DNA of 64,000 nucleotides, from contig ONHF01000003.1 in assembly GCA_900317555.1 (NCBI GenBank), positions 62,001 to 126,000 of the forward strand, written 5' to 3'. Every line of letters begins with the position of its first letter. Position 1 is the stretch's first letter. A model generated the notes under the pieces. That model made no database searches and was not told the origin of the DNA. It saw only the letters and a list, made by a program, of their open reading frames with translations. A program made the position numbers and the translations under genes. Positions 3,477 through 51,035 of the stretch are shown here, in pieces. Origin of the DNA: an uncultured Lachnospiraceae bacterium (GTDB lineage Bacteria; Bacillota; Clostridia; Lachnospirales; Lachnospiraceae).

Positions 3477-4889
3477 TCAGAACCGGAAGTAGATAAACGG
3501 ATTGTATGTGTTGTTTGCGAGCAGCAAAATGCTGTAAAACATCACCGCCGCAAGATAAACCGCTTCTGGGATGCTGTTCTTCCAACGGGCCGCGATGTTT
3601 TTGAGCCTGCCAAGCGTAAAGATCTGCTGCAGAATACCGCAGCCGATGATGCCCGCGGCCGCGGCAAGAACCGTCTGCGTGCCGACCATCGTTCCGAGCG
3701 CCGCTCCCTGCGATACCGTATAACGCCACGGCAGAAGCATCCGGAAGACGATCGCAAAGCCCTGCCGCACGCTTGTTACGCGGAAGAACACCCAGCCGAT
3801 AATGAAGACAAGCGCGGTATAAATCGTGGCCAGCACCTTCGATTTCTTCAAGATCTTACCAAAGCCGAGACGCTCGATGATGATAAAGAAGCCGTGGTAC
3901 AGGCCCCAGCCGACAAAGTTCCAGCTGGCGCCGTGCCAGAGTCCCGTCAGGAAGAAAACAATGATGTTGTTGATATAGGTCCGAACTTCGCCTTTTCTGT
4001 TGCCGCCGAGCGGGATATAGACATAGTCGCGGAACCACGAGGAAAGCGAAATGTGCCAGCGCCTCCAGAACTCGCGGATCGACTTTGAAATATAGGGATA
4101 GTTGAAGTTTTCAAGGAACTCGAAGCCGAACATCCGTCCGAGGCCGATCGCCATATCCGAGTAGCCCGAGAAATCATAGTAAATCTGGAGCGTATAGAGT
4201 ATGGCAGCGGTCCAGGCCATTACGCCGGTCATGTTTTCCGGCGAAAGCGCGAACAGTTTATCCACAGACGAGGCGACAAGATTCGAAATAATCACCTTTT
4301 TCCCGAGGCCGTAGATGAATCTCCGGATACCGCTCGCAATCTTCTCCGGCGTCCGCTTCCTGTTCATGATCTGATCTTCGATGTCCTTGTACTGCACGAT
4401 AGGGCCCGCGATCAGCTGCGGAAAGAAAGAAATGTACAGTGCCAGATGAAACAGATTCTTCTGCGCCCTGTATCTGCCGCGGTACAGATCAATCACATAG
4501 CTCATAGCCTGAAATGTAAAGAAACTGATTCCGATCGGCAGCGCGATATGCGTTACCGGTACGGAAGCGGAAGGCAGGAGGCGCCGGATCGTATCCAGAA
4601 TAAAGTTTGTATATTTGAAATAGCCCAGAAGCCCCAGATTGCCGATGATATCCAGCACGAGAAACAGCTTTTTATGCGCCGCGCTCTTTTCGATCAAAAG
4701 TCCGAAGGTCCAGTTCATCAGGATGGAAAACAGCATCAGGAACAGATACACCGGCTCTCCCCAGGCATAGAACAAGAGACTGAAGATGAGCAGGAGATAG
4801 TTCTGCAGGCGCGGCCTGCGGATGATCAGGCTCAGTACAAAGACGAGCGGCAGAAAGAGCCAGAGAAAGGTCATGGAGCTGAAGACCAT
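3477..4889 (-). CDS. MBOAT family O-acyltransferase (AlgI/DltB-like)
   Basis: The 470-residue polytopic protein shows the MBOAT signature: FFPQLIAGPIVQY near residue 155, YYDFSGYSDMAIGLGRMFGF near 240, NFNYPYISKSIREFWRRWH near 262, and the catalytic histidine in LTGLWHGASWNFVGWG near 325. These enzymes move an acyl group, usually acetyl, across the membrane toward an external polysaccharide or teichoic acid. It is the first gene of a four-gene leftward operon with its DHHW partner next. The start has a clear AAAGGAG seven bases upstream, and a good sigma-A promoter lies at 4934-4962. AlgI-type polysaccharide acetylation is more likely than DltB because no dltA or dltC is nearby. Confidence 0.95.
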   Translation of the reverse strand: MVFSSMTFLWLFLPLVFVLSLIIRRPRLQNYLLLIFSLLFYAWGEPVYLFLMLFSILMNWTFGLLIEKSAAHKKLFLVLDIIGNLGLLGYFKYTNFILDTIRRLLPSASVPVTHIALPIGISFFTFQAMSYVIDLYRGRYRAQKNLFHLALYISFFPQLIAGPIVQYKDIEDQIMNRKRTPEKIASGIRRFIYGLGKKVIISNLVASSVDKLFALSPENMTGVMAWTAAILYTLQIYYDFSGYSDMAIGLGRMFGFEFLENFNYPYISKSIREFWRRWHISLSSWFRDYVYIPLGGNRKGEVRTYINNIIVFFLTGLWHGASWNFVGWGLYHGFFIIIERLGFGKILKKSKVLATIYTALVFIIGWVFFRVTSVRQGFAIVFRMLLPWRYTVSQGAALGTMVGTQTVLAAAAGIIGCGILQQIFTLGRLKNIAARWKNSIPEAVYLAAVMFYSILLLANNTYNPFIYFRF

Positions 4890-4933
4890 GGAGTAACTCC
4901 TTTACAGTAATCCGGACAATGTATAACTAATAG

Positions 4934-4962
4934 ATTTTAACGTATTTTCCGTGCTTTCTCAA
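4934..4962 (-). promoter_or_regulatory. Sigma-A promoter of the MBOAT operon
   Basis: Reading leftward, TTGAGA (4962-4957) is followed after exactly 17 bp by TAAAAT (4939-4934). Transcription would start about 35-40 bases before the MBOAT ATG. The promoter sits between the flippase stop and the MBOAT start, so the four-gene operon can be expressed independently of the flippase gene. Confidence 0.6.
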
Positions 4963-4964
4963 TG

Positions 4965-6350
4965 TTAATGTGCGGTGCGGGCGGCTGCAGGATGCTTTTT
5001 ATACGCCAAGGCAAATTGCGCCGAAAGCAGCGCGCAGACGATCGCCATGATCAGTACAAATGAAATCACTGCTCCCATAATACCGCTGATTTCCACAAAG
5101 TGCGGTGTCAAAATCAGAGAAAGCACCGCCCCCGCAAGATACATGAAAGGAATTCTGTTCTGCTCGCGCATCAGGGTCAGCACGGCGCTGTAGAAGCCGT
5201 TCATGGCAAGGAAAACGCCGCCGGCAAGAATCAATAGAAGCTCCGGCTTCAAGGCAGAAAGATCCGTCGCGTACAGTGCGGACAAAACCGGAATTCCCAG
5301 AACATACGCCCCGCCAAGACACAGCGCCGCGATAATCAGAAGGCCTGCCGTAATTCGCAGAAAATCCCGCAGAAAGCCTTTCTGATCCGCGCTGTTCCAT
5401 GAAAGCGTCATGCGCACCAGTACCGGCTGATACACAAACATGCCAAGGAGCTGTATCACAAAGACCGGCATCGCGATAAAGTTGTACTGCGCCTGCGCCG
5501 TCTCATTCATGGCCGCATCGATCGCGTATTTCGGCGCGTTGATCAGATAGAAGGACAGGAAATTCGCGGCGCACACAGGAAAACAGACCCGCATCAGCAC
5601 TGCCGCGTCGCGAAGGGCGCCGCGGCGCGCGGCAGATACGGCGGCGCTGGCGGCCGCCGGCGATGTTGCCGCTCCCCTGTTCTTCGCGGCAGCGCCCGGC
5701 GCAGCACCTGCGTTTCCGACGTCTGCGACGAGTTCCGGCGCCGGCTGCAGCGGCAGCAGCGTTCTCCTGCAGGCCGCCGCCATGAGAATGACCGCCGCTG
5801 CCGCAAGAATAATGGCGGCGTTCGTTGCGGTCAGAAGATTTCTGGTTGCCACAAGGACAGCAAGCATGCCGCCGATGCTGATAAGAAGACGGACCGTCAT
5901 CATTTTGCCGGCGAGGTCCAGTCTTCCTCTCTGATGCAGTCTGCCTTCGAGCACTTCCTCCAGACAGTCGATTGCCTTTAAAAGGCACATGGCTGCGACG
6001 GTCATTGTTTTGGCGGGGGAATAAGCGCCGCGCAGCAGACTGTACGTGCAGTAGACCGCTGCCGCCAGCAGCATCAGGGCTACCGTCAGCAGGCGGTGCA
6101 GGACGTAGCTGCGGAACGGAAACTTCTCATCCACGTCCGAAACCTGATAATTCCGCACGCCGTAGTTGCCAAGATACATAAACAGGTTGCCGGTCGCAAA
6201 GGCAATCGAATAAAGGCCGGCGGCTTCCAGACCGCAGACTCTTGTAACAATGATCAGAACAAGCACCGACTGGCCTGCGTTCAGCATGCCGCCGATGGCA
6301 TTCCAGATATAATTTCCGGCTTCGTTTTTGTTGTGGACGTTATCACTCAT
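4965..6350 (-). CDS. Polysaccharide flippase, MOP superfamily (Wzx-like)
   Basis: The 461-residue protein has 12-14 predicted membrane spans. The N-terminus (NYIWNAIGGMLNAGQSVLVL) and the loop GNYGVRNYQVSDV are typical of oligosaccharide flippases that turn undecaprenyl-linked repeat units to the outer membrane face. The position directly before the O-acyltransferase operon fits a surface glycan pathway. About 40 residues of Ala/Pro/Gly-rich low-complexity sequence (near residues 205-245, about 5615-5735) sit in a predicted cytoplasmic loop, an unusual insertion for this fold. The start is supported by AAAGG eight bases upstream and an extended -10 box at 6403-6411. No polymerase or ligase gene is in view, so the pathway is incomplete here. 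Confidence 0.88.
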   Translation of the reverse strand: MSDNVHNKNEAGNYIWNAIGGMLNAGQSVLVLIIVTRVCGLEAAGLYSIAFATGNLFMYLGNYGVRNYQVSDVDEKFPFRSYVLHRLLTVALMLLAAAVYCTYSLLRGAYSPAKTMTVAAMCLLKAIDCLEEVLEGRLHQRGRLDLAGKMMTVRLLISIGGMLAVLVATRNLLTATNAAIILAAAAVILMAAACRRTLLPLQPAPELVADVGNAGAAPGAAAKNRGAATSPAAASAAVSAARRGALRDAAVLMRVCFPVCAANFLSFYLINAPKYAIDAAMNETAQAQYNFIAMPVFVIQLLGMFVYQPVLVRMTLSWNSADQKGFLRDFLRITAGLLIIAALCLGGAYVLGIPVLSALYATDLSALKPELLLILAGGVFLAMNGFYSAVLTLMREQNRIPFMYLAGAVLSLILTPHFVEISGIMGAVISFVLIMAIVCALLSAQFALAYKKHPAAARTAH

Positions 6351-6420: not shown

Positions 6421-6905
6421 GCCGCGGTACGCCGGTCTCCTCCTGTCTGCGAAAAATCTTGTTGGGATGGCAGGCCGGCAAGCTCTCTTTCTGTAAAATG
6501 TGTCACAGTTTGTGAAATTGTCCTTCCTCAGAGAAATTTTCATTTGCAGAATGCTTGCAAAACAGCGTCTGCCTGGAAATTTTCCTTCTGTACAACAATT
6601 CTGCGATCCAGAGGATACTAAGATTTCTCTTCTTTATCCTGCTTTCATGATAAATTCCTACCGGATCCCGAAAAACAATTACAGAAGGAAGTCAGCGTCC
6701 TTCTGCCTCTCAAATTTGATGGGTAGATGGCTGTTATCATGGATCCACGCTAGTCACTGGGACTGGTTTTCTTCTCCCAGAGGGAATTCGAGCCGGCAAG
6801 CCGGAATGCATATTAGTCTCTGCCAATAATTTTCACCCTCCGGATGGAATTCGAGCGCAGAGCAAGTCAGTTCCATACATGATCTGGCTTCTATAACGCC
6901 GGCGG
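6421..6905 (+). repeat. Long intergenic repeat, copy A (about 485 bp; copy B at 50549-51035)
   Basis: This otherwise gene-free stretch aligns along its length, in the same orientation, with 50549-51035. By eye about four of five bases agree and several blocks are identical, for example around 6605-6690 against 50733-50820. Inside are two degenerate direct units about 63 bp apart (starting 6752 and 6815, each AGTC-x-CTG ... TTTTC ... GGAATTCGAG). There is also a hairpin with arms CAGAAGGA (6682-6689) and TCCTTCTG (6698-6705). A 109-codon frame at 6500-6829 is broken by stops in copy B, so protein coding is unlikely. The nature is unknown: a decayed mobile element, an extragenic repeat or a structured RNA. 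Confidence 0.8.
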
Positions 6906-7061: not shown

Positions 7062-10000
7062 TCAGTCTTCTTTCGCTTTTACAGCATCTGTCTTGTAAAT
7101 GAACTTGACAGCGCTGTTCTCCTGATCACCGGTGCCCGCGAACGATGTATAGTCATCGCCGGCATCCACAACCGCGTTAATTCTGTCAATGACATCCTGC
7201 ACGTTGTCACCGAACAGATCCGTCAGCTTACGGATACCCTCTTCGTTCAGCTTGATGACGCCGTCCTGCAGTGTCGCCATACCATCATCCAGATCATGCG
7301 CACCATCATTCAGCGAATTGATGCCATCAATCAGCGTCTGTGTGCCGTCGTCCAGATCATGTGCGCCCTTCTGAAGATCACCTGCGCCGTTGTCCAGCTT
7401 GATGATGCCGTCATTCAGATCACCGGCTCCGCCATCGAGCTGATGTGCGCCGCTTTGCAGATCCGATGCGCCGCTCTTTAACGTTCCAATCCCATTGTCC
7501 AGATCATGTGCGCCCTTGCCAAGTTCCTGAATGCCGCCTGCCAGACTACCAGCACCGTTATCGGCCTGTTCCGCGCCGGCAGCAAGTTTGCCTGCACCGT
7601 CATCCAGAGCGTTGGCGCCGCTGCTGAGCTGATCGATGCCGTTCTTCAGATCTCCGATACTCTTCGTTGTTGCGTCAGAACTATTCGTCAGCTGCTGCAG
7701 GCCGCTGCCAAGGCCGGTTGTCAACTGATCTGCGCCTTCCTGGAGGGCGGTCAGCTTCTCCTGTTCCGCCTTGGTTTCATCGGGATTCAGAGACGCATCA
7801 AGGTCGGCATGAATCTTGTCGAGGCCGCTCTTCGCGATGCCAAGTCCGTAAGCCAGAGAATCCAGAGCATCATCAACACTCTTCTGCAGAACAACCAGAC
7901 TCGAGTTGATCACTTCGGCTTCCCCCATGATTTTAGTCATCTTCTCGACCCGCTTCGAATCATTGGTAGCCTCCAATTTTTCCGTGCCGTCGAAAGAAGA
8001 CTTCATATCCTCCAGTGCGCTGACCGTGGCGTCGGCTTCAACCTTTGCCTGCTGCGCTAACTGCAGGTTCTCTTTAGCCGTCTTAAGCGTCTGCTGTGCC
8101 TGCGCAACCGACTCGCTGCTCTCTTCCGCCTTCGCAACAAGAACCGTGCTCTCATAGAGCGCGTTCTTCATTTCATTCAGTTTACTTACCGCCAGGCCGG
8201 CAAGGCTTGCCTGCGTACTCTGAACATTTTCTGTAGTGTCCGCAGCGGAATTGCCGGCATTTGTGTCCTCTGAAGAAGTATTGTCTGCAGGAGCCGCGCT
8301 CTGCGAAGAGGCGTCTGCCGCCGCATCGTTCTGCGCGGATGTATCTGCAGCCGTGTCATTCTGCGCGGGAGTTTCTGCCGGCTCTGTGCCGGCTGCCTTG
8401 CTTCCCGCAGAATCTGTACTTTGCGTTCCCGCGCTTTCAGCCGACGCGTTGCTTGAAGAAGCCGCACGGTTCTCAGAGGTAGAAGCCGCATCATTCGTCT
8501 CCTTCTCCTGATCCGCGGAATTCTGTAGTTCATCTATCTTCTGCTGCAGCTTTGCGTTCTTCTTGGCAAGATCGTCGTTCTGCTGCTGCAGGCTGTTCCC
8601 TGCATCCGCGCTGTTCTGCTGCGCTTTCAACGCTTCGTCATAAGCCTTCTGCGCTTTGTCTACTGTTTCCTGCGCTTTCTGCAAAGTATCGTTCGCGCTC
8701 TGCGCTGACTGCAGCGCCTGATTATATGCTTGCTCTGTTTTATCGCGGTAACCTTGTCCTGTAGTGCCGCTGGCTTCATCCTTCGAATAATCCTCGAGGT
8801 CACTAATCAGCTTTTCCACCTGCCCCTGGATAACGCCGACACCGTTATTAAAATTATTCCGCAGCTCCTTGATGCCATTCGCTGCCTGACCGATGCCTGC
8901 CGAAATTGTCTGCACGCCAGCGTCCATTGCCTTCATGTTCAGTGCGGTGTTCTTGAACTTGTCAGTCAGCGTTCTGATGCCGTCCGAAATCTTTGCGGAG
9001 CCGTTCTCTGCTTTCTGCAGCTTCGTGCCCATATCCTGCAGATCTTTCAGGCTCTGATCCAGCTGCGGCTTCGCGGCGGAAAGCTGATCCGTACCGGCTT
9101 TCAGCTGCGATGTGCCGTTTTTCAGAGTCTTCAGGCCGCCCGAGAGCTGCGATGTGCCGTCTTTTAACTGCGAAGCGCCTGAGCTGAGTTTATCCGTGCC
9201 GCCCGCCAGCTTCGAAGAGCCGTCCTTGAGCGTTGAAACGCCGGAAGAAAGATCATCCGTGCCATCCGCCAGCTTCTTCGTCCCGTCTTTGAGGTCCGCG
9301 GAGCCGTCTTTTAATTTGTCCGCGCCGTCCTTTAAATCGTCCGTGCCGTCTGCCAGCTTCTTCGTGCCGTCTTTCAGATCCCCGGAGCCGTCCTTGAGCT
9401 TTTCCGTGCCGTCTGTCAGACTTTCGGTACCGTCTTTGAGCTTTCCGGCACCGTCCTGCAGCTTGTCCGCGCCGTCCTGCAGCTCGTCCATCTTGTCGGT
9501 CAGCTCTTTTGTATCAACGTCCTGTGTCAGATTGACCGAAGACAGGAGATTGCTCTGCGCGACCGTCATGGTCGTGTCGATCTTGAAGTTCTTCGCGTCC
9601 GCGGTGATTTCAACATAGTCCGGAATGTCGATATCGTCGATTTCCTTCTTCGCGTCCTCGGAGACAGCCTCGTTCTTTAAATCATCGAGGTCGATGCTCT
9701 CTTTCAGGCCGGGGAAGGCGAGGCCGACGACAATGTTGTTTTTCCCTTCGGAAATGATGCGCCCGTTCGTTACCGTTACGTTGTCAAAATTCTCGATCGG
9801 GAGAATGACGCCGCTGATAACAGAGAACGGAACCTTGATCTTCTCGTCTTTGCCGCCGATCTTCACGGTCTTCTCGGTGTTGTTGGTATAGTCAAAACGG
9901 ATTGTGACCTTGCCGCTCTTGCCCGCAATCTCATCCGGCGTAACTTCCTTACCGTCCAGAAGATAGGTGATCTTCACATCCACCGGCAGCTCTTTGTCGG

Positions 10001-10457
10001 TCGTTCCCTGATAGTAAATATCGGAGCCTTTGGCGTCCCAGGTCAGTTTTCCGTCACTGCCCTTCTTGAAGGTCTCGTAGCCGTTGACGTTCGTGATGTC
10101 TTTGAGCTCGGACTTATCCTCCAGCGTATCCTTGCCGTCGCCGTTCTTTAAGTGGTCGCTGACGATCACGCTCTTTTTGCTGCCGTCCGCAGAGGAAATA
10201 ACATAGACTGTTTCATCCTTGCCCTTGCCTGCGCTGTGCGCGGACGTAAGCTCTCCGATCTTCTCGCTGAGCTTTTCTTCGTCGGTTTTGCCGCTGCTTT
10301 CGGTTTTTACATCATCGACCGATTCGGTATCGGTTACGGCATCCGCGGAGGATGTCACGCTCGAAGTTCCGCAGCCGGTCATCCCGAAAAGCATGGAGAC
10401 AGCTGTTATAACACTACACAATTTGGTACTGCGTGCCAGTAATTTCTTGTTCTTCAT
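7062..10457 (-). CDS. Giant lipoprotein with two arrays of xxxLxxG heptad repeats, partner of RND/MMPL transporter
   Basis: The 1131-residue secreted lipoprotein has a signal peptide with lipobox FGMTGC and Cys29 as lipid anchor. Next comes a globular region to about residue 315, then some 20 heptads of the form xxLKDGT/xxLADGT (about 320-465). A coiled coil (about 565-655), a Ser/Ala/Thr-rich disordered linker (about 655-750), more coil, and a second array of about 19 heptads (905-1075, LDDGA/LQSGA type) follow, ending in a short conserved-looking tail. The xxxLxxG heptad is the repeat known from YhgE/Pip and some type VII secretion proteins, but the C-terminal membrane domain of YhgE is absent. 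It starts 22 bp after the MMPL gene with GGAG upstream. It probably forms a long rod linking the transporter to the wall. Function is inferred from context. Confidence 0.85.
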   Translation of the reverse strand: MKNKKLLARSTKLCSVITAVSMLFGMTGCGTSSVTSSADAVTDTESVDDVKTESSGKTDEEKLSEKIGELTSAHSAGKGKDETVYVISSADGSKKSVIVSDHLKNGDGKDTLEDKSELKDITNVNGYETFKKGSDGKLTWDAKGSDIYYQGTTDKELPVDVKITYLLDGKEVTPDEIAGKSGKVTIRFDYTNNTEKTVKIGGKDEKIKVPFSVISGVILPIENFDNVTVTNGRIISEGKNNIVVGLAFPGLKESIDLDDLKNEAVSEDAKKEIDDIDIPDYVEITADAKNFKIDTTMTVAQSNLLSSVNLTQDVDTKELTDKMDELQDGADKLQDGAGKLKDGTESLTDGTEKLKDGSGDLKDGTKKLADGTDDLKDGADKLKDGSADLKDGTKKLADGTDDLSSGVSTLKDGSSKLAGGTDKLSSGASQLKDGTSQLSGGLKTLKNGTSQLKAGTDQLSAAKPQLDQSLKDLQDMGTKLQKAENGSAKISDGIRTLTDKFKNTALNMKAMDAGVQTISAGIGQAANGIKELRNNFNNGVGVIQGQVEKLISDLEDYSKDEASGTTGQGYRDKTEQAYNQALQSAQSANDTLQKAQETVDKAQKAYDEALKAQQNSADAGNSLQQQNDDLAKKNAKLQQKIDELQNSADQEKETNDAASTSENRAASSSNASAESAGTQSTDSAGSKAAGTEPAETPAQNDTAADTSAQNDAAADASSQSAAPADNTSSEDTNAGNSAADTTENVQSTQASLAGLAVSKLNEMKNALYESTVLVAKAEESSESVAQAQQTLKTAKENLQLAQQAKVEADATVSALEDMKSSFDGTEKLEATNDSKRVEKMTKIMGEAEVINSSLVVLQKSVDDALDSLAYGLGIAKSGLDKIHADLDASLNPDETKAEQEKLTALQEGADQLTTGLGSGLQQLTNSSDATTKSIGDLKNGIDQLSSGANALDDGAGKLAAGAEQADNGAGSLAGGIQELGKGAHDLDNGIGTLKSGASDLQSGAHQLDGGAGDLNDGIIKLDNGAGDLQKGAHDLDDGTQTLIDGINSLNDGAHDLDDGMATLQDGVIKLNEEGIRKLTDLFGDNVQDVIDRINAVVDAGDDYTSFAGTGDQENSAVKFIYKTDAVKAKED

Positions 10458-25562: not shown

Positions 25563-25634
25563 CGCGCCGGGCGGCTGCCGACAAACTCATTTGTACAATA
25601 TTAGGGAATTCTGCCGCCGTGAATTAGCTGTCAT

Positions 25635-25787
25635 TTCTTGCAGAACCGAAGATTTTTAGGATTTGCAAGAAACCCTTCTTTGCAAATCCGGAATCCGGCA
25701 CTTTTGCAAGAAGAATTTCTACTTATTTGGATTCTCTTTCTTGCAAATTTCTGAAATTCAGGTTTTTGCAAGAAACTCTTCTTGCAG
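25635..25787. repeat. Cluster of TTGCAAGAA palindromic repeats
   Basis: The gap between convergent genes holds direct copies of TTGCAAGAA at 25663, 25704 and 25766, and inverted or near-inverted copies at 25635, 25677, 25738 and 25779. They combine into inverted repeats: GGATTTGCAA/TTGCAAATCC around 25659-25690, TTTCTTGCAAA/TTTGCAAGAAA at 25737-25775, and TGCAAGAA/TTCTTGCA at 25767-25786. Spacing is irregular, so this is not a CRISPR array. One hairpin may serve as terminator for the flanking genes. The core resembles palindromes near 32660 and 50400. Confidence 0.7.
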
Positions 25788-32534: not shown

Positions 32535-32601
32535 AATATTGCATATGTTTTAACGCTGTTTTTGCGTATATTTCACTTGTTTTCTCAATTCATGCAATAT
32601 T
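32535..32601. repeat. Inverted repeat AATATTGCAT / ATGCAATATT
   Basis: Arms at 32535-32544 and 32592-32601 are perfect 10-bp complements separated by 47 bp. It precedes the nested palindrome at 32629-32719 in the gene-free stretch between abiEi and the HRDC gene and shares its TTGCAT core. Confidence 0.55.
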
Positions 32602-32628
32602 GGCGGAACTCTGCGTACAGCATAGAAA

Positions 32629-32719
32629 ATTCAAGACGAATTGTGTGTGCGGGCGCATATTGCATAGAAAAAGGCAAAATCTATGCAATACGCGTCCGCT
32701 TTGCTAATATGTCTTGAAT
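32629..32719. repeat. Nested palindrome element, copy Y (copy X at 50305-50395)
   Basis: Outer arms ATTCAAGAC (32629-32637) and GTCTTGAAT (32711-32719) enclose, after 20 bases on each side, a perfect 11-bp inner stem TATTGCATAGA (32658-32668) with TCTATGCAATA (32680-32690). The 20-base side arms pair partly (GCGGGCGC with GCGTCCGC). The whole can fold as one 91-base imperfect hairpin. No protein-coding potential. Confidence 0.75.
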
Positions 32720-32793
32720 AATCTATGCAGGAAAGCAAGTCGCGCCGACATTGCATAGAAATGCGAGAAGAATCGCCGCGCGCCACCATGAAA

Positions 32794-50195: not shown

Positions 50196-50304
50196 AAATA
50201 ATTGTGTTGCCGCGGCGGGCTGCTTGCACGCTTGCAACGCTGTGTTGGCGACGAGGCATCCTGCCCTATGCAATAGCGGCATTGCCCCGGAATTTGCCTG
50301 GAGA

Positions 50305-50395
50305 ATTCAAGACGTTTGACAAGGCACGGAGCGTATTGCCTAAATTTGGGCCGAATTTAGGCAATACCGCGACGTGTGATAGAAATGTCTTGAAA
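50305..50395. repeat. Nested palindrome element, copy X (copy Y at 32629-32719)
   Basis: Outer arms TTCAAGAC (50306-50313) and GTCTTGAA (50387-50394) enclose, after 19 bases on each side, a perfect 14-bp inner stem GTATTGCCTAAATT (50333-50346) with AATTTAGGCAATAC (50354-50367), loop of 7. Length, outer arms and spacing match copy Y, while the inner stem sequence differs yet stays fully paired. It starts about 110 bp after the YcxB-like gene. Confidence 0.75.
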
Positions 50396-50396
50396 T

Positions 50397-50436
50397 TTTC
50401 ATGCAAGAGGATGCAGTGACGGCGTATTGCATGAAA
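50397..50436. repeat. Inverted repeat TTTCATGCAA / TTGCATGAAA
   Basis: Perfect 10-bp arms at 50397-50406 and 50427-50436 with a 20-base loop, directly adjoining copy X of the nested palindrome. It shares the TTGCAT core with the palindromes near 32540 and 32660. Confidence 0.6.
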
Positions 50437-50548
50437 GCCTGGCCGATGTCCGGCCAATGCTCTGCCGATGCCTAGACAAATGCCCGGTGATGCAGCCTCG
50501 CTGCCTTGGCTCCTCCGCCCATAGGTGCCGGGTTGTTACCTTCGCTGC

Positions 50549-51035
50549 GGCGCGGTGGCCGGCTATTCCTCCTATACGAGAAAAATCTTGTTCAGATGAC
50601 AGGCCAGTAGGCTCTCTTTCTCCGAAATGCGTCTCTATTTGAGGAATTGTCCATCTTCAGGCAGATTTTCATTTGCGGAATGCTTGCGAAACAGCGTCTG
50701 CCTGGAAAATTTCCTTCTGTATAACAATTCTGCCATCCAGAGGATACTAAGATTTCTCTTCTCTATCCTGCTTTCATGATAAATTCCTACCGGATCTCGA
50801 AAAACAATTACAGAAGGAAGTCTGCGTCCTTCTACAGCTCAAATTTGATGTGTGGATGGCTGTTAGCATGAATATATGATAGTCCCTGGCACTAATTTTC
50901 TTCTCACAGAAGGAATTTGCGTCGCCATGCCGGAATGCACATCAGTCTCTGCCACCAATTTTCACCCTACAGATGGAATTCGAGCACAGAACAAGCTACT
51001 TCCATACTTGATTTAGCTACCATGCCACCAACGGC
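50549..51035 (+). repeat. Long intergenic repeat, copy B (copy A at 6421-6905)
   Basis: Same orientation and nearly the same length as copy A. Two internal units start at 50881 and 50944 (AGTC-x-CTGxCAC, then AATTTTC and GGAATT), 63 bp apart as in copy A, and a third weaker unit lies at 50695-50727. The CAGAAGGA hairpin is kept with one end-base change (50811-50833). The element ends about 90 bp before the GH3 terminator, as copy A ends about 80 bp before the lipoprotein terminator. Confidence 0.8.

Follow-up and report, generated by a model that had tools for sequence, protein, structure and literature searches.

Paired palindromes in an uncultured Lachnospiraceae genome are the centres of an extragenic repeat whose boxes, spacing and hairpin appear to be kept by selection

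The two 89-bp palindromes in the stretch of DNA analysed here (64,000 nucleotides, hereafter the window) are the centres of a larger element of about 170 bp, designated family A. By kind, it belongs to the extragenic palindromic repeats and behaves in a MITE-like manner, although neither a RAYT transposase nor target-site duplication was found in the searches described below. Selection appears to keep its short boxes, their exact spacing and the central hairpin, and the element is probably a functional DNA site with a hairpin core that is bound by protein. Whether bacterial intergenic repeats are parasitic or useful to their host is hard to decide from sequence. A region-by-region comparison of orthologous copies, however, treats the boxes, the hairpin and the length and sequence of the spacers separately and reveals which of these parts are kept.

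Architecture of the repeat unit

Each palindrome measures 89 bp from arm end to arm end and 91 bp when one flanking base per side is counted, in agreement with the 90-91 bp given in a preliminary description of the window. The outer arms described there are indeed common to both: TTCAAGAC lies on the plus strand at 32630-32637 (element 1) and 50306-50313 (element 2), and its complement at 32711-32718 (GTCTTGAA) and 50387-50394, both on the minus strand. The inner stems, placed 19-20 bases inside the arms, were located 20 bp inside in element 1 and 19 bp inside in element 2. They differ in sequence and yet are perfectly self-complementary, as had been claimed. Element 1 carries TATTGCATAGA/TCTATGCAATA at 32658-32668 (+) and 32680-32690 (-), paired in both DNA and RNA folds, and element 2 carries an extended stem, GTATTGCCTAAATT/AATTTAGGCAATAC, at 50333-50346 (+) and 50354-50367 (-), seen in its RNA fold. 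The arm octamer alone is unremarkable in the window (5 matches against 2.25 expected; 9 of 100 shuffles reach 5). The proposed genome-wide check of the arm pattern, TTCAAGAC-N60-90-GTCTTGAA, returned 9 places in the window's genome (G000; 2.29 Mb, 32 contigs, 87% complete), all of them 88-89 bp, while the reversed control returned 0.

When copies were aligned, conservation was seen to extend beyond the 89 bp. As profiled over 104 half-units of 52 copies (a set without L081, a weak copy, and without L124, L130, L132, L148 and L177:311, which were found later), the conserved blocks end at TATTGCATNRA, and outside them composition is that of the background. The unit thus delimited is an array of fixed spacing with six A boxes of the TATTGCATNRA type and two B boxes (TTCAAGAC). 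Read from one end, an outer A box is separated by 19 bp from a mid A box, which a B box follows; about 20 bp further on come an inner A box and the loop, and then the mirror image. The inner A boxes form the arms of the core hairpin. Of the 52 copies, 45 have a core of exactly 89 bp, and the TCTATGCA-TATTGCAT spacing was 19 bp in 38 of 38 exact pattern matches from G000 and its sister MAG G004 (95% complete), with N14-24 permitted. In the window and in G000 stretches around copies, which were chosen because they hold copies, all inverted 8-mers recurring three or more times at one spacing came from boxes of family A or of a second family, B. The triplets next to the boxes are A/T-rich throughout and do not pair, and some degenerate box positions (2 and 9) vary independently between the two sides.

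Element 1 (copy L059) spans 32590-32758 as a whole conserved unit of about 169 bp, judged from the half-unit conservation edges, with a model match at 32587-32761. On its left, the outer A box ATGCAATA (32592-32599, -) and the mid A box GCATAGA (32620-32626, +) are both conserved in the 52-copy alignment A2; on its right, the mid A box TCTATGCA (32722-32729, -) is followed after 19 bp by the outer A box CATTGCATAGA (32749-32759, +). Similarly, element 2 (copy L064, with ortholog L093 in G004) spans 50266-50434 with a model match at 50263-50437, and its right half carries a mid A box TTCATGCA (50398-50405, -) and an outer A box TATTGCATGAA (50425-50435, +). Both ORFs flanking element 1 are on the minus strand, and an HRDC domain is present in the right one; element 2 is flanked by convergent ORFs, of which the right one encodes a GH3 protein.

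Upon clustering of the 104 outer arms, 51 of the 52 copies have their two ends in different classes, a figure that is partly threshold-dependent as several classes consist of a single arm. Class 16 (16 arms) always stands opposite classes 5-8 or 30, and class 18 (11 arms) opposite 25, 26, 27 or 9. Therefore, the palindrome seems to conceal a left end and a right end. Some copies, namely L077, L078, L124 and the first one in L177 (311-502), carry the 19-bp segment of mid box and B box in reversed orientation at its usual position.

Two further repeats were noticed in the window. Positions 6438-6860 and 50567-50990 are 87% alike over 300 bp; the second of these copies begins in intergenic DNA 133 bp past element 2, and a further part repeats with a 63-bp period. 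A tandem repeat at 9109-9512, mostly in 21-bp steps, lies within a large minus-strand ORF (7062-10457).

Distribution, genomic context and mobility

A covariance model found 22 clear family A copies and three weak ones (E 0.001, 0.05 and 0.17) in G000, and at least 33 copies were collected in G004 (27 from the first model search, 2 from fetched stretches and 4 later), which bears out the earlier proposal of a repeat family. Family A was found in these two of 62 genus genomes and in none of the other 60; in a family sample of 299 genomes, two of them of this genus and G004 not among them, it was found in G000 only. These multi-genome searches used strict filters and scored the best candidates (44 per genome for the genus, 9 for the family), so that weak copies could escape. 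One copy was located on a 5.4-kb RUG409 contig that may have been binned there in error. Pattern matches in a Woesearchaeota genome (L054) and in G040 (L011) were set aside as chance, neither genome having a model match. A viral, phage or plasmid origin was likewise dropped: the strict pattern had 0 matches in viral contigs, and element 1 was unmatched in plasmids and phages. In the open-licence papers searched, no description of the family A element was found.

Of 46 copies with called genes on both sides, 16 lie between convergent, 24 between tandem and 6 between divergent genes (53 rows in all, with the weak copy L081 included, orthologs counted twice and genes called with a home-made codon score). 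In the window, 4163 of 13610 intergenic bases (31%) are convergent and 658 (5%) divergent. Measured against the window's own intergenic DNA, the copies thus show no clear orientation bias, and a role at gene ends is not supported. A common neighbour gene family was also sought and discarded, because no protein group among the 159 called genes spans more than 2 of the 23 sources; the proteins scanned in the neighbourhood are ordinary ones of metabolism, transport and regulation, and some of them have no Pfam match.

The G004 copy L148 lies within a segment of about 320 bp that is missing from G000. Among the matches listed with both flanks matched, the same site in 17 other genus genomes has a spacing 150-303 bases below that of G004 (for instance, 95 in G024 against 394 in G004). 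The empty or shorter site in G000 and in these 17 genomes points to an insertion in G004. A similar 310-bp segment accompanies L090, for which gain and loss were not polarised. As both segments are longer than the conserved unit, they do not show where a transposing unit would end.

Family A has short length and inverted outer boxes in common with MITEs, and is non-coding as judged from the alignment only. However, the mean longest direct repeat near the edges of 37 copies was 3.65 observed versus 3.63 permuted, giving no sign of target-site duplication, and no transposase was present among the 26 nearby proteins scanned. Boxed half-units arranged as inverted pairs, outside genes and in many copies, are also what a REPIN or BIME moved by TnpA_REP (RAYT) would present. 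The search for TnpA_REP advised in the preliminary description nevertheless came back empty: PF01797 gave 0 matches in G000 and in G004, against 9 positives in the 15 genomes searched. Movement by this transposase is hence very improbable.

Several copies lie close together. Cargo between them was considered and rejected, since the protein at L102 has no Pfam match and the stretch between the L103 copies contains no complete ORF of more than 80 aa. In L103 (G004, 4176-5769), the two copies are 1.6 kb apart; this segment was not found at the orthologous G000 site L066, whose single copy resembles both L103 copies. In an arrangement similar to an array of family B copies in G004 (described below), L104 holds two family A copies at a distance of 272 bp (3729 and 4001).

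Ortholog comparison and the central hairpin

Thirteen intact ortholog pairs between G000 and G004 were compared by region; L080/L082 was left out, one half of L080 being unrecognisable. The pairs were chosen because both copies match the model, a bias that favours conserved ones. As a neutral reference, four-fold sites of 17 flanking genes were 80.2% identical (3209/3999). Against this reference, the boxes were 95.4% identical (868/910, Fisher p 9e-35) and the GC stem 89.9% (374/416, p 5e-7), whereas the 19-bp spacers were 81.6% identical (403/494, p 0.51) and contained 0 gap columns. Thus the spacers drift in sequence but keep their length, while boxes and stem are constrained. In finer division, the outer, mid and inner A boxes were 95, 94 and 97% identical, the B boxes 94%, the GC stem 90%, the loop 87% and the spacers 82%. 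The element as a whole averaged 90% identity versus 58 and 59% in the 80-bp flanks and was the more similar part in 13 of 13 pairs. Alignment of the elements alone gave two gap columns, each within the AT triplet, and alignment together with their flanks gave seven.

Nine of the 22 G000 sites, L061, L076, L078 and L079 among them, lie outside these pairs, and some of the nine have changed in part. L080 is without one half that L082 retains, 245 bp including the left arm and core of L060 are missing in G004 with the right arm kept, and L072 has its left arm in common with G004 and a different core. A close variant of L077 is present in G004. Truncated, core-deleted or internally inverted copies of this kind, together with a dispersed, non-coding distribution and one lineage-specific insertion, are what dead MITE remnants would leave, that is, functionless insertion relics alike only by common origin. 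Relics of this sort seem improbable, because the boxes changed by 5% and the 19-bp spacers stayed gap-free while four-fold sites changed by 20%, unless ascertainment explains the difference.

The hairpin itself was then compared with random substitution. When the non-box core substitutions were re-placed at random, the hairpin lost a mean of about 5 kcal/mol in stability relative to the real one, and core stability was kept better than under random placement in 13 of 13 pairs on either strand (Wilcoxon p 1.2e-4 each; each pair is the mean of both directions, and many single comparisons are not significant). Core arms also pair better within than between copies, with z 4.5 for 28 G004 copies and 2.6 for 17 G000 copies. 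The core was recognisable in 46 of the 52 copies in this test (45 in G000 and G004), and in 44 in the core-position analysis. Inside subfamilies, the within-copy excess is significant for II (z 3.0, 6 copies) and not significant for I (z 1.1, 15 copies).

The preliminary description had read the compensatory difference between the inner stems as selection on structure. This holds in so far as arms pair within copies and the hairpin is kept, but finds little or no support at the level of single pairs: in strict mirror register, 0 of 80 changed pair positions between orthologs were compensatory WC-to-WC double changes, and the RNAalifold covariation term was near zero (+0.33 for 13 copies, -0.56 for 52 copies). 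Some change on both sides was seen in 8 of 38 and 4 of 12 predicted pairs, respectively. The differing inner stems of the window are accordingly old subfamily differences and not recent compensation. The reported partial pairing of the side arms likewise applies to the 8-bp boxes only; the 19-bp stretches between the boxes show no covariation.

Such a hairpin might instead act in RNA, as a bidirectional mRNA 3' stabiliser or terminator at gene 3' ends with selection on the RNA fold. The 170-nt RNA folds of elements 1 and 2 are strong (z -10.8 and -9.3 against dinucleotide shuffles, 0 of 200 as stable), and the kept hairpin stability would fit as well; folded as DNA, element 1 gave z -8.3. In 19 tandem-gene copies, 54 G-U pairs in sense versus 34 in antisense are suggestive, with orthologs counted twice, whereas the overall balance in 38 copies was 80 versus 83. 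Neither window element contains a terminator-like site, the elements had no Rfam match in the 18 loci scanned, and convergent sites are in no clear excess over the window's intergenic bases. Moreover, an RNA element leaves the gap-free 19-bp spacers of neutral sequence and the 95% conserved outer boxes unexplained. We therefore regard an RNA role as unlikely, albeit with some evidence in its favour.

A putative protein platform, known repeats and family B

Constraint at box level, gap-free spacers, a maintained core hairpin and retention at orthologous sites are the observed grounds for reading the element as a platform. Judged from its sequence, family A works like a multi-site platform with a hairpin core for a putative protein. 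It would have spread in the common ancestor of the two sister species, and occasional insertion or exchange may continue. In each copy, six A and two B boxes set around the central hairpin would form a ready-made platform, to which the lineage's own protein or proteins may bind as a rigid complex on duplex DNA, while the core could presumably be extruded or folded into a hairpin. The same box binding could have given mobility via a putative recombinase not of the Y1/TnpA_REP type, while today a host function between genes would keep the sites intact. We consider it rather probable, by a modest degree, that family A is a dispersed, non-coding extragenic repeat of MITE/BIME-like kind, a box platform around a hairpin that is bound by protein and retained by the host. 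Finding a box-binding protein would directly test whether such repeats can be host-retained platforms, here in a lineage for which the search for a REP transposase came back empty.

ERIC, YPAL and Correia/NEMIS are MITE-like, being short, non-coding, dispersed and palindromic. Family A resembles them in all four respects, but shows no target-site duplication, no parent transposase among the proteins scanned, and boxes that are constrained after insertion. The bcr1 repeat of the Bacillus cereus group has a target-site duplication, whereas none was seen in family A, and family A, unlike bcr1, has six like boxes in a rigid symmetric array. ERIC and YPAL are among the repeats listed in PMC2267715. 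The same list gives bcr1 as a 167-bp model from 31 sequences, 21 of them complete, with a predicted structure; set beside it by description, family A is alike in intergenic site, length and copy number (PMC2267715). REP, BIME and REPIN elements are like family A in their extragenic inverted box pairs, hairpins and mosaic copies. REPs are 20-40 bp (PMC3733652), so family A is far longer, and no RAYT was found in G000 or G004. No conserved GTAG tag was seen at the hairpin foot in alignment A2 (52 copies, by eye and from the consensus). For CGTC-tagged REPs, a dedicated transposase also seems to be lacking.

A family B element of 155 bp, with TTTGCAAGAA-type boxes at fixed spacing, lies at 25633-25787 of the window. 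The family B model matched 10 distinct places in G000 and 18, two of them partially, in G004, and gave no match in the remaining 60 genus genomes, the best 48 candidates per genome being scored; full-length matches are 153-155 bp. In the left half, TGCA cores start at 7, 32, 49 and 73 in family B and at 7, 33 and 75 in the family A consensus, while the right halves of the two families differ. The TTGCA-cored boxes and the similar left-half geometry suggest, at the level of sequence, a common design. At the site of L069, between the same genes, G004 has a family B element. A and B could tentatively be two specificities of one undescribed nucleoprotein system, spread by a non-Y1 recombinase, retained by the host and interchangeable at a given site, a possibility that we hold to be doubtful. 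If it were true, the host role might be insulation between genes or chromosome architecture. It should be further pointed out that three family B copies stand head-to-tail in G004 (C31, 12698-13295) at a spacing of 221-222 bp.
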